The translations under genes were made by a program, and so were the position numbers. DNA of 64,000 nucleotides from Agrococcus sediminis (GTDB lineage: Bacteria; Actinomycetota; Actinomycetes; Actinomycetales; Microbacteriaceae): contig NZ_VOIR01000014.1 in NCBI RefSeq assembly GCF_007923295.1, positions 163,825 through 227,824 of the forward strand. Reading direction: 5' to 3'. Position 1 is the stretch's first letter. Each line of letters opens with the position of its first letter. The notes under the pieces were generated by a model. The model did not search any database and had not been told where the DNA came from. It saw nothing but the letters and a program-made list of their open reading frames with translations. Of this stretch, positions 59,080 to 63,192 are shown one piece after another.

Positions 59080-59856
59080 TCAGCGCGCGAGCCGCTCCAG
59101 CAGCGCGTCGTGCAGGCGCCCGTTGGTGGCGAGGGCGGAGCCGTGCCAGGGCCCCGGCTGCCCGTCGACCGAGGTGAAGGTGCCGCCGGCCTCCTGCACG
59201 ACGGGCACGAGCGCGGCCATGTCGTAGGGCTGCAGGTCGAACTCCGCCACCGCATCCACCTTGCCCTCCGCGAGGAGCATGTAGCTCCACGCGTCGCCGT
59301 AGGAGCGGGCGCGCCAGACGTCGCGCTGCAGCGCGACGAGGTCGTCGATCCGGCCCGCGCCGTCCCAGCCCTGGATGGCGTTGTACGACAGCACCGCATC
59401 CGACAGCGCGCCGACGCCCGAGACCCGGATGGGCCGCGGCCGCGCGGGGTCGGTCCACGCGCCCTGCCCCTCGGCGGCCCACCAGCGCGCGCCGAGCGCG
59501 GGGGAGGAGACGACCCCCACGACCGGGCGGCCGTCGACCGCGAGCGCGATGAGCGTCGCCCAGATGGGCGCGCCGCGCAGGAAGTGCGCGGTGCCGTCGA
59601 TCGGGTCGATGATCCACTGCCTGCTCGCGTCGCCGGAGGTGCCGAACTCCTCGCCGAAGATCGCGTCGTCGGGGCGCTCCTCGGCGAGCACGGCGCGGAT
59701 GCGCTGCTCGACCGAGCGGTCGGCGTCGGTGACGTGGGTGGTGTCGGCCTTCGTCGTCACCTCGAGGTCCTGCGCGCCGAAGCGCTCCATCGAGATGGCG
59801 TCGGCAGCATCCGCCAGGCGCAGGGCGAGGTCGAGGTCGTCGTCGTAGCCGGTCAC
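59080..59856 (-). CDS. hisN: Histidinol-phosphatase / inositol monophosphatase family
   Basis: A 258-residue Mg-dependent phosphatase. Metal-ligand motifs are FGEEFG and IDPIDGTAHFLRG, with GDAWSYMLLAEGKVDAV near the C-terminus; this pattern, together with the neighbours rsgA and aroA, fits the actinobacterial histidinol-phosphate phosphatase HisN. GTG 59856 lies six bases after TACGCT. Activity on other monophosphates is possible. Confidence 0.85.
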   Translation of the reverse strand: MTGYDDDLDLALRLADAADAISMERFGAQDLEVTTKADTTHVTDADRSVEQRIRAVLAEERPDDAIFGEEFGTSGDASRQWIIDPIDGTAHFLRGAPIWATLIALAVDGRPVVGVVSSPALGARWWAAEGQGAWTDPARPRPIRVSGVGALSDAVLSYNAIQGWDGAGRIDDLVALQRDVWRARSYGDAWSYMLLAEGKVDAVAEFDLQPYDMAALVPVVQEAGGTFTSVDGQPGPWHGSALATNGRLHDALLERLAR

Positions 59857-59862
59857 GATCCC

Positions 59863-59868
59863 AGCGTA
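59863..59868 (-). promoter_or_regulatory. -10 box of hisN (leaderless)
   Basis: TACGCT on the minus strand, six bases before GTG 59856, inside the rsgA-hisN gap. Confidence 0.5.
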
Positions 59869-59878
59869 CGGCGGCGCG

Positions 59879-60919
59879 TCACTCCTGGTGGCGCTGCTCG
59901 CGCGCGGCGACGAGCGTGCCGAGCATGCGCTGCATCGAGTCGACGCGGCGCGGCTCGAGGCGGCCGTCCGCGGCCGCGATCGCGAGCTCGCAGTACTGCT
60001 CGTCGACGAGGTGCGTGCAGCCGCGCGGGCAGTCCTCGGCGACCTCCGCGAGGTCGGGGAAGCCGCGCAGCACGTTCGCGGTGGCGACGTGGCCGAGCCC
60101 GAAGGAGCGCACGCCCGGGGTGTCGATGATCCAGCCGGAGCCGAGCTTGAACGACACCGTCGACGACGAGGTGTGGCGGCCGCGGCCGGTCACGGCGTTC
60201 ACATGGCCGACGGCGCGCCTGGCCTCCGGCACGAGCGCGTTGACGAGCGTCGACTTGCCGACGCCCGAGTGCCCCACCGCGACGGTCGTGTGGCCGTCGA
60301 GCCGCTCGCGGAGCGCCTCGACGGGCGGGTCGTCGATCGACGAGCGCCACACCTCGATGTCGAGCCCGGCGAAGTTCGCGAGGAACGGCTCGGGGTCGGC
60401 GACATCCGTCTTCGTCACGACCATGATCGGCGTGATGCCGGCGTCGAGCGCCGCGACCAGGTAGCGGTCGACGAGCCGCGGCCGCGGCTCGGGGTCTGCG
60501 GCGGCGACGACCATGAGGAGCACGTCGGCGTTCGCGACGATGACCCGCTCGACCACGTCGGTGTCGTCGGCGGAGCGGCGCAGCACGGTCGTGCGCGGCT
60601 GGATGCGCACGATGCGAGCGAGCGAGCCCGTCTCGCCGGTGGTGTCGCCCACGACGTCGACGCGGTCGCCGGCGACGATCGCCTGCTTGCGCAGCTCGCG
60701 CGCGCGGGCGGCGGTGACGATCGCCTCGTCCTGCTCGTCGATGCGCACCGCGAGCGTGTACCGGCCGCGGTCGACGGCGGTGACGATGCCGGTGACGGCG
60801 TCCTCGTGCTCGGGGCGCTGCTTCGAGCGCGGCCGGTTGGCCTTCGGGTTCGGGCGCTCGCGCACGCTCGACTCGTCGTACTGCTCGTACGGGTCCTCGT
60901 GCTCGGTCATCCAGCTCAT
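59879..60919 (-). CDS. rsgA: Ribosome small-subunit biogenesis GTPase RsgA
   Basis: A 346-residue circularly permuted GTPase that matures the 30S subunit. Motifs occur in the order G4 (TKTD), G1 (GHSGVGKST), G3 (DTPG), after an OB-fold, and a C-terminal zinc site CPRGCTHLVDEQYC. The first 40 residues are charged and variable. ATG 60919 follows the aroA stop by seven bases. Confidence 0.92.
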   Translation of the reverse strand: MSWMTEHEDPYEQYDESSVRERPNPKANRPRSKQRPEHEDAVTGIVTAVDRGRYTLAVRIDEQDEAIVTAARARELRKQAIVAGDRVDVVGDTTGETGSLARIVRIQPRTTVLRRSADDTDVVERVIVANADVLLMVVAAADPEPRPRLVDRYLVAALDAGITPIMVVTKTDVADPEPFLANFAGLDIEVWRSSIDDPPVEALRERLDGHTTVAVGHSGVGKSTLVNALVPEARRAVGHVNAVTGRGRHTSSSTVSFKLGSGWIIDTPGVRSFGLGHVATANVLRGFPDLAEVAEDCPRGCTHLVDEQYCELAIAAADGRLEPRRVDSMQRMLGTLVAAREQRHQE

Positions 60920-60926
60920 GCGCGGC

Positions 60927-62237
60927 TCACTCCAGCTCGCCCGCGAGCATCGCGGCCCACAGCTCCGGGAACTCCGGGATGGTCTTGGCGGTGGCGCCGA
61001 TGTCGTCGACCTCGACGCCCGGCACGCGGAGGCCCACGACCGCGCCGGCGGTCGCGATGCGGTGGTCGTCGTAGGCGCGCCACGGGCCGCCGGTCAGGGG
61101 TGCCGGCTCCACGCGGATGCCGTCGGGCAGCGCCGTCGCCGAGCCGCCGAGCGCGGCGATGTCGTCGACGAGGGCCTGGATCCGGTCGGTCTCGTGCCCG
61201 CGGATGTGGCCGATGCCGGTCACCTCGACCGGGCCCGACGCGAGCGCGCCGAGCGCCACGATGGTCGGCGCGAGCTCGCCCGCGGCGTGCATGTCGAGCG
61301 TCGCGCCGGGGATCTCGCCGCCGACGGCCTCGATCGTGAGCGAGCCGTCGGCGACCGACGACGTCGCGCCGAACGGGGCGAGCAGCTCGGGCAGCAGCCG
61401 CCCCACCTGCGTCGTCCCGTCCGGCCAGCCGTCGAGCACGACTCGGCCGCCCACCGCGACCACGGCCGCGAGGAACGGCGCGGCGTTCGACAGGTCGGGC
61501 TCGATGCGCTCGTCGAGCGCCCCGATCGGGCCGGGCTCGACCCGCCACGAGGCCTCGCCGATCGCGCGGGCGTCGACGCCGCGCTGCCGCAGCGCCGCGA
61601 GCGTCATCTCGATGTGCGGCAGCGACGGCAGCCGCTCGCCCCGGTGGTGCAGCGTGAGGCCCTCGTCGAAGCGGGCGGCGACGAGGAGCAGCGCCGACAC
61701 GAACTGGCTCGAGGCGCTCGCGTCGATCTCGAGCTCGCCGCCGCGCACCCCGCCCGCGCCGTGCACGGTGAACGGCAGGCGCGGCTCGTCGGCGTCGACG
61801 CGCACGCCGAGGCCGCGCAGGCTCCCGATCGTCTGGTCCATGGGGCGCTTCCGCGCGTGCGGGTCGCCGTCGAACGCGACCGGGCCGTCGCCGAGCGCCG
61901 CCATGATCGGCAGGAAGCGCATCGCCGTGCCGGCGAGCCCGCAGTCGATGGATGCGCCGCCCACGACGGGGCCAGGGGCGACGACGAGGTCGGGGCCGAA
62001 TCGGCCGTCGCCGGGCGCCTCGCGGATGTCGGCGCCGAGCGCGCGCAGCCCCGCGGTCATGAGCTGCGCGTCGCGGCTGCGCAGCGGCCGGTGCAGCGTC
62101 GAGGGCGCGTCGGCGAGGGCCGCCAGCAGCAGCGCGCGGTTCGTGAGGCTCTTCGAGCCGGGCAGCTGCACGCGGGCGTCGAGGCGCGCGGTCGCGGTCG
62201 GCGCGGTCCAGGGGCGGGAATGCTCGAGCGGGCTCAT
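60927..62237 (-). CDS. aroA: 3-phosphoshikimate 1-carboxyvinyltransferase (EPSP synthase)
   Basis: A 436-residue enzyme of the shikimate pathway joining shikimate 3-phosphate and PEP. Motifs are [29 protein letters not shown] (the LxGNAGTAxR region with Leu-Ala instead of Asn-Ala), [10 protein letters not shown] and [19 protein letters not shown] 62237 is chosen because TAGATT lies seven bases upstream; a TTG at 62246 would fall inside that box. Its 5' end carries the divergent SigH-type promoter. First gene of aroA-rsgA. Confidence 0.92.
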
Positions 62238-62242
62238 CGGTT
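62217..62242 (+). promoter_or_regulatory. SigH/SigR-type promoter of the sigma-factor gene
   Basis: GGAAT (62217-62221), exactly 18 bases, then GTT (62240-62242): the SigR/SigH consensus. Most of it lies inside the 5' end of aroA, pointing the other way. Predicted start about 62249, giving a leader that contains the GGAGGAGG site and GTG 62282. Confidence 0.75.
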
Positions 62243-62244
62243 GC

Positions 62245-62250
62245 AATCTA
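62245..62250 (-). promoter_or_regulatory. -10 box of aroA (leaderless)
   Basis: TAGATT on the minus strand, seven bases before ATG 62237, adjoining the GTT element of the divergent SigH-type promoter. Confidence 0.5.
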
Positions 62251-62281
62251 TCGGTCGGGCAGTACAGCGGAGGAGGGGCCG

Positions 62282-62332
62282 GTGGCAGGGACGACGGTCA
62301 TGGCGCCGACGGCGACACTAGACTCGCCCGCG
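62282..62332 (+). other. N-terminal extension of SigH (long isoform)
   Basis: Seventeen in-frame codons from GTG 62282, preceded by GGAGGAGG about six bases upstream. Translation from here would give a 217-residue sigma factor, the counterpart of the long, short-lived SigR isoform known in Streptomyces. Confidence 0.6.
62319..62324 (+). promoter_or_regulatory. Housekeeping -10 box of the short SigH isoform
   Basis: TAGACT, eight bases before ATG 62333, inside the N-terminal extension of the long isoform. A transcript from here can only make the short form. Confidence 0.5.
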
Positions 62333-62935
62333 ATGGACGAGCAGCGTGACGAGGCCAAGCGCGACGACTTCGTGGAGCAGGCGATGCAGTACGCCGACCA
62401 GCTCTACGCGGCCGCCATGCGCATGACGCGCAACCCGGCCGACGCCGCCGACCTCGTGCAGGAGACCCTGCTCAAGGCCTACGCCGCGTACGACTCGTTC
62501 CAGCAGGGCACGAACCTGCGGGCGTGGCTGTACCGCATCCAGACCAACACCTACATCAACACCTACCGCAAGCAGCAGCGCAGGCCGTTCGAGGCGCCCC
62601 TCGACGACCTGGAGGAGTGGCAGATCGGCGACGCCGAGTCGTTCACCGCCATGTCGTCGCGCAGCGCCGAGGCCGAGGCGATCCACCGGATGCCCTCCGG
62701 GATCGTGAAGGACGCACTGCAGCAGGTGCCCGTCGACTTCCGCATGGCGGTCTACTGGGTCGACGTCGAAGGGCTCAGCTACGCCGAGACCGCCGAGGTC
62801 ATGGAGACCCCCGTCGGCACCGTCATGAGCCGCCTGCACCGCGGCCGCAAGCTGCTGCGAGGCCTGCTGGCCGACTACGCCCGGGAGCAGGGCATCGCCG
62901 TGCAGGACACCATCGTGAAGGAGAAGAAGCCGTGA
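62333..62935 (+). CDS. sigH: ECF sigma factor of the SigH/SigR thiol-stress group
   Basis: A 200-residue ECF sigma factor. Region 2 is visible as [22 protein letters not shown] and the Arg/Asn-rich [20 protein letters not shown]. Region 4 is [45 protein letters not shown]. The linker [11 protein letters not shown] is typical of the SigR/SigH group. It is coupled by GTGA to an RsrA-type anti-sigma gene. Two starts are possible: ATG 62333 (short) and GTG 62282 (long). It probably activates its own upstream promoter and oxidative/disulfide-stress genes. Confidence 0.9.
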
Positions 62936-63192
62936 GCGAGACGCCCCAGGCCACGAAGGACTGCACCGAGGCCCGTGCCGCCCTCGAGGAGTACCTGCAC
63001 CACGAGCTCTGCGCCGAGGACGCCGCGGATGTGCGTGCGCACCTGGCGGAGTGCGAGGAGTGCTCGGCCGAGCACCACGTCGGCGAGATGCTGACCGCCG
63101 CCCTGCAGGGCGCCTGCAAGGACCGCGCCCCCGAGGAGCTGCGAGCGAAGCTGCTCGAGAGCCTCCGGGCCGCGAAGGCGAGCCACGCCTGA
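62932..63192 (+). CDS. rsrA: Zinc-binding redox-sensing anti-sigma factor (RsrA/RshA type)
   Basis: An 86-residue ZAS-family anti-sigma factor. C11, H37, C41 and C44 are present at exactly the positions of the zinc/disulfide switch of Streptomyces RsrA (HLAECEEC motif). On thiol oxidation zinc is lost and the sigma factor is freed. C27 and C-terminal C near 65 are extra. The GTG start overlaps the sigma-factor stop and has AAGGAG upstream. Confidence 0.9.

Follow-up and report, generated by a model that had tools for sequence, protein, structure and literature searches.

We describe a sigH locus in Agrococcus sediminis that is likely to form a two-promoter, two-isoform circuit of the SigR/SigH type, and whose autoregulatory promoter would exclude the promoter of the divergent gene aroA. 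That the two promoters make two isoforms is the part we hold with good confidence. Physiological significance of the exclusion of aroA is a more tentative proposal, to which we give somewhat less than even credence. Positions below refer to the window, the whole 64-kb stretch of DNA that was analysed.

Results

The upstream promoter, P2, is of SigH type and reads GGAAT-N18-GTT at 62217-62242 of the plus strand, with GGAAT at 62217-62221, an 18-nt spacer and GTT at 62240-62242, as a preliminary description of this DNA had reported. It is the single occurrence of that pattern in the window on both strands, where base composition predicts 0.23. Genome-wide, GGAAT-N17/18-GTT is found at 29 sites, against one for the reversed pattern. 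The sigH gene was present in 24/24 genomes of the genus Agrococcus, with P2 kept in 24/24 loci, and was matched in 284 of 299 sampled Microbacteriaceae genomes. The family comparison covers 93 sigH loci from 54 genera, the remaining family matches not having been fetched; P2, in the form GGAA[T/C]-N17-19-GTT, stands upstream of sigH in 92 of them, and the genera with a P2 match number 53. For GGAAT-Nk-GTT alone, the spacer is 18 nt in 77 family loci, 17 in 12 and 19 in 3, and any other length from 10 to 26 occurs in just 0-3 loci. The sole family locus outside the P2 pattern (L077) reads GGAAT-N18-ATT and is omitted from the counts with n = 92. Chance as the source of P2 was ruled out by the 29 versus 1 count in the organism's own genome and by the conservation in the family. 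The comparison across Microbacteriaceae that had been proposed for the upstream region therefore found its elements conserved in the family loci examined and bears out a SigH-type promoter ahead of sigH, which we infer to be the autoregulatory promoter of the gene.

The downstream promoter, P1, is recognised by its putative -10 element, TAGACT at 62319-62324 (plus strand), which lies eight bases before the ATG at 62333, as previously noted; TAGACT-N8-ATG is unique in the window. This ATG opens the short isoform of SigH (62333-62935, plus strand), an ECF sigma factor. Searched with the long form, SigH scores 268.4 bits against TIGR02947, above the cut-off of 251.55, and the match begins at residue 22. 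An in-frame TANNNT stands exactly 8 nt before the ATG in 93/93 family loci, and at spacings of 3-7 and 9-13 nt it is found in none of the 93. The hexamer is TAGACT in 53 of these loci, TAGAAT in 18 and another sequence in the remainder. The base preceding the short ATG is G throughout (93/93), with C or T ahead of that G in all cases, so transcription would start at the G and leave a 1-nt leader. The short SigH mRNA would accordingly be nearly leaderless, and the second element, positioned as expected for such a form, is present in every family locus as a putative promoter of the SigR-independent type downstream of the long start.

This regularity bears on whether there is only one real start, GTG 62282 or ATG 62300, with TAGACT-N8-ATG as a chance feature of coding sequence. 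Such a reading could draw on the fact that ATG 62300 is also in frame, and gene callers would probably pick an upstream start. It is nevertheless very improbable, given the invariant 8-nt spacing and a G before the ATG at all 93 loci despite the peptide encoded over the element, which varies (LDSPAM, LDWPVM, LELALM, GSSPM) while the DNA pattern stays constant.

The long isoform would begin at GTG 62282 (62282-62935, plus strand) and carry a 17-aa N-terminal extension before the short start. Its Shine-Dalgarno sequence, GGAGGAGG, was found where the preliminary description had put it, at 62269-62276 (plus strand), with 5 nt between AGGAGG and GTG. AGGAGG-N5-GTG is unique in the window, and the distance of 5 nt to the start recurs in many loci of the same genus. 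Across the family, an ATG or GTG with a Shine-Dalgarno match of at least 4 nt and a frame open to the -10 element occurs in 88/92 loci when the sigH frame is read, whereas the two alternative frames give 4 and 9; 4 of the 92 have no start backed in this way. With a match of at least 5 nt the numbers are 68 against 2 and 2, and with one locus per genus 49/53 against 2 and 5. Over the 12 codons that precede the -10 element, stops number 1/1050 in frame and 11/1045 and 21/1037 out of frame. A translatable long form is thus supported by an open, ribosome-binding-site-backed frame in the family. The extension has a median length of 20 aa (range 10-50).

Between GTG 62282 and ATG 62333 the sigH frame has a further possible start, ATG 62300, which was absent from the preliminary description. 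Its product resembles the long SigH N-termini of sister species.

The extension often contains a short box, L[ED][RA]P. In the sigH frame it is present in 22/92 family loci and 20/53 genera, and in neither of the other frames, a pattern that was picked after the peptides had been inspected; residue shuffling gave a mean of 0.28 and a maximum of 3 (n = 53). The 20 cases use 19 different codon strings, which indicates conservation as protein. In other families, a second set that had likewise already been seen, the box occurs in 15/69 loci; neither alternative frame has it, and the shuffle mean is 0.53. The A. sediminis extension contains TLDSP in place of a strict match; L015 has MPTTMLEAPR and L014 MPTMTLEAPR. 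Four loci from large genomes of the class, probably Streptomyces (L186-L189), lack TANNNT-N8-ATG, and in three of them the long form begins with MGSTICP or MGFTICP, which may be a divergent form of the box.

We consider L[ED][RA]P a candidate degradation tag that would destabilise the long form. Published accounts of the Streptomyces long isoform, SigR', as excerpted here, ascribe its instability to the entire extension without singling out a motif (PMC5472188, PMC4921905, PMC6282962). Another explanation has both starts in use and the extension arising only as a by-product of the need for a Shine-Dalgarno sequence on the P2 mRNA, so that the two proteins are alike and no degradation feedback exists. 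The variable length of 10 to 50 aa, a middle that appears unconserved to the eye, and the finding that no clpP or Clp_N gene lies behind a SigH-type site would suit it. It does not predict an in-frame box in 20/53 genera and 15/69 loci of other families, with synonymous codon variation and none in other frames, and SigR' is unstable in Streptomyces in the excerpted text of PMC4921905. On balance we regard the by-product explanation as fairly unlikely and keep the box as the candidate for instability.

The sigH gene is followed by a gene for an RsrA-type zinc-binding anti-sigma factor (62932-63192, plus strand), whose GTG overlaps the sigH stop. This assignment combines a score of 55.8 bits against TIGR03988, below the cut-off of 62.5, with a zf-HC2 match, the adjoining position and the string HLAECEEC, that is H-x3-C-x2-C, which we take to be the ZAS motif.

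On the opposite strand, aroA (3-phosphoshikimate 1-carboxyvinyltransferase; 60927-62237, minus strand; 325 bits against TIGR01356, cut-off 287.25) starts at ATG 62237 and is probably leaderless. Its putative -10 element, TAGATT at 62245-62250 (minus strand), lies 7 nt before this ATG and over the expected P2 start site. The preliminary description had this element touching the GTT of P2; two bases, 62243-62244, separate them. It had also placed the promoter inside aroA. This holds for the -35 element, which covers aroA codons 6-7; the spacer contains the aroA ATG itself, with the GTT a short way upstream of that codon. The placement of P2 across the start of aroA is conserved in the family. 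GGAAT begins exactly at nucleotide 21 of the divergent aroA in 82/92 loci and 48/53 genera, and in these 82 overlapping loci the aroA ATG sits within the P2 spacer. Their aroA genes carry TANNNT 7, 8 or 9 nt before the ATG in 30, 26 and 26 cases, respectively.

The overlap constrains aroA at the DNA level. In the 82 overlapping loci, codons 6-7 are TAT-TCC in 58, CAT-TCC in 23 and AAT-TCC in one, and over the same aroA genes TAT accounts for 9/99 Tyr codons, CAT for 92/743 His codons and TCC for 25% of Ser codons. At the ten loci where P2 lies outside aroA, ATTCC at the site of codons 6-7 is found in none (0/10). We therefore rejected the possibility that GGAAT is kept merely for the Tyr/His-Ser residues of AroA, since the codons are sparingly used and loci with a displaced P2 have lost the residues.

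A tree of the 93 loci, built with FastTree from SigH and AroA columns, places overlap at the midpoint root and needs 5 changes, whereas 200 sets of shuffled labels gave a mean of 9.6 and a minimum of 6; L077, whose aroA has ATTCC at the right place, was scored as overlapping. With about five losses, the overlap is dispensable. Agrococcus is one genus with both the overlapping and the separated state, and in L025-L027, one branch of the genus, P2 lies 35-54 nt outside aroA, a natural contrast against which exclusion could be judged.

Alternatively, the circuit could be the same and the overlap a result of passive genome compaction in the family ancestor, with both elements fixed in place as soon as the spacer contained the aroA ATG, and with no effect of either gene on the other: five escapes within the family show that separation is tolerated, aroA lies hundreds of nucleotides from P2 in nearly all cases seen in other families, and a promoter caught around an initiation codon would hold its geometry without any benefit. 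We put passive compaction at not far short of an even chance. It leaves unaccounted for the persistence of the overlap in 48/53 genera with P2 although separation was possible, and two fully overlapping promoters could hardly be occupied simultaneously. Exclusion of the aroA promoter by P2 would follow from that geometry, and it would extend beyond aroA itself. Behind aroA, rsgA (ribosome small subunit GTPase; 59879-60919, minus strand; TIGR00157, 150 bits, cut-off 100) follows after 7 nt, and hisN (histidinol-phosphatase; 59080-59856, minus strand; TIGR02067, 281.7 bits, cut-off 275.15) after another 22 nt. With gaps of only 7-22 nt, aroA-rsgA-hisN (59080-62237, minus strand) is probably one operon cotranscribed from the aroA promoter, so any effect on that promoter would reach both downstream genes.

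In 15 family genomes no strong SigH match was found, and 11 of these 15, a small sample, had an aroA match. Five of the eleven (L150-L154) have a weak sigH match at the usual spot beside aroA, and the L159 open reading frame at that position looks like a sigma-factor gene. ATTCC occurs close to the start of aroA in these six genomes, three of which (L150, L152 and L159) retain the exact GGAAT-N18-GTT. The other five (L155-L158 and L160) have neither ATTCC near the aroA start nor GGAAT-N18-GTT. We had considered these genomes as natural knock-outs of sigH and set that use aside.

The SigH-type sites elsewhere in the genome suggest the content of the regulon. We scanned with Pfam 30 open reading frames beside 26 of the 29 GGAAT-N17/18-GTT loci, leaving out L126, L127 and the sigH locus (L140). 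Twenty of the 30 had a match and ten had none. The matches include a thioredoxin reductase-type flavoprotein, NrdI, SufB, an Fe-S biosynthesis protein and a DsbA-like protein, as well as RibD, YceI, DUF4193 and three luciferase-like monooxygenases. This set, scanned without a control set, presumably resembles the SigR regulon. Some of the sites are probably due to chance, such as the one beside a TrwC relaxase. Sites lie upstream of the open reading frame with the NrdI domain (C1:315851-315876, L120) and of that with the SufB domain (C13:89695-89720, L134), which suggests that ribonucleotide reductase and Fe-S assembly may belong to the regulon. Variants with GGAAC, at 57 matches genome-wide against 4 for the reversed pattern, mostly have 17-nt spacers and are probably coding; we left them unused as regulon sites.

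Clp protease genes were considered as SigH targets, and a scan for exact sites found no GGAA[TC]-N17/18-GTT before clpP1P2 or the two Clp_N-domain genes of the genome. At the clpP loci the only match was a GGAAC site with a 16-nt spacer on the other strand. A loop in which SigH induces the protease that degrades its long isoform accordingly has no sequence support in this organism.

We also examined a wider set, 144 of 147 loci, with L205, L279 and L284 lacking an anchor. These loci were divided into 24 of the family type and 120 others according to whether aroA lay at most 130 nt from P2, except that L203 was assigned manually to the others. The 24 aroA-adjacent loci, almost all labelled as Microbacteriaceae or one of its genera and at least one of which (L206) duplicates a genome of the first family set, all carry P2 and TANNNT-N8-ATG (24/24). 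Among the 120 others, P2 is present in 115 and TANNNT-N8-ATG in 71, indicating that the two-promoter plan predates the Microbacteriaceae. TANNNT-N8-ATG is absent from the loci seen in Micromonospora, Nonomuraea, Rhodococcus, Mycolicibacterium, Blastococcus and Amycolatopsis; the one Mycolicibacterium locus (L259) has P2. In the other group, aroA was seen at 36 loci. Its aligned part lies 72-1226 nt from P2, in one case below 576 nt, and this distance is partly set by the 130-nt rule. The nesting of P2 in aroA looks like the Microbacteriaceae's own variant of a more widespread plan.

Discussion

The preliminary description had proposed the same two-isoform feedback as in Streptomyces. Two promoters and an upstream long start agree with that proposal, and the 17-aa extension and the lack of a SigH-type site before the Clp genes scanned do not. 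In the excerpted literature, the sigR-rsrA locus of Streptomyces coelicolor has two promoters, sigRp1 and sigRp2, and an unstable SigR' isoform (PMC5472188, PMC4921905); the instability of SigR' in Streptomyces is also described in PMC6282962. As far as these excerpts go, the two loci share an upstream SigR-dependent and a downstream SigR-independent promoter, a long start upstream, and a sigma factor stop that overlaps the start of the anti-sigma gene. They differ in the length of the extension, given as 58 aa (PMC5472188) or 55 aa (PMC4921905) in Streptomyces, compared with 17 aa in Agrococcus. The short form starts at GTC with a strong ribosome-binding site in S. coelicolor, whereas in Agrococcus an ATG comes right after the -10 element and the mRNA would be nearly leaderless. 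Furthermore, the Agrococcus P2 spans aroA, unlike that of S. coelicolor in the excerpts seen, and no SigH-type site was found ahead of clpP1P2 or Clp_N genes, in contrast to the Streptomyces model.

The sigH-rshA locus of Corynebacterium glutamicum shares the ECF sigma/anti-sigma pair and TANANT housekeeping-type promoters (PMC3489674). Four SigA-type promoters precede sigH there, with three mapped starts at 22, 89 and 93 nt from the start codon, and the excerpted text of that paper describes no SigH-dependent promoter before sigH, unlike the arrangement in Agrococcus. In Mycobacterium tuberculosis, SigH is of the same family and autoregulated (PMC4803200, PMC3489674), apparently only so in the excerpted account of PMC3489674, compared with the two-promoter plan in Agrococcus. 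Our literature searches on sigR/SigH with aroA and on Microbacteriaceae with RsrA found no paper on the sigH-aroA overlap, and a search on SigH isoforms with ClpP found nothing on the sigH-aroA arrangement.

We propose the following sequence of events. In unstressed cells, the housekeeping RNA polymerase would recognise TANNNT, 8 nt ahead of ATG 62333, giving a nearly leaderless mRNA for short SigH. Thiol oxidation would release SigH from its RsrA-type anti-sigma factor, and the freed SigH-polymerase would use P2 to make a longer mRNA starting near 62249, from which the strong Shine-Dalgarno sequence and GTG 62282 would yield long SigH with its short N-terminal tag. By geometry, transcription from P2 would start near 62249 and that of aroA near 62237-62238, about 11 nt apart and diverging. 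The two promoters occupy almost the same DNA on opposite strands, so a polymerase at one should exclude the other, and full induction of sigH would lower transcription of aroA and of rsgA-hisN.

A more speculative extension, which we think rather improbable as a whole, treats P2 as a two-way switch with aroA-rsgA-hisN. SigH-polymerase would turn the operon off in thiol stress, housekeeping polymerase at aroA would in turn restrain the self-activation of SigH, and L[ED][RA]P would terminate the response as a degradation tag common to the Actinomycetes.

The exact 8-nt distance from the -10 element to the ATG gives a sharp prediction of near-leaderless sigH transcripts, and the N-terminal box can be tested as a candidate source of instability in the long SigR/SigH isoform. 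The GGAAT element that dictates two residues of the AroA enzyme is a clean case in which regulatory DNA has shaped a protein. With a stress promoter held over the start codon of a metabolic gene in most of the genera examined, these bacteria would likewise be a clean case for promoter exclusion.
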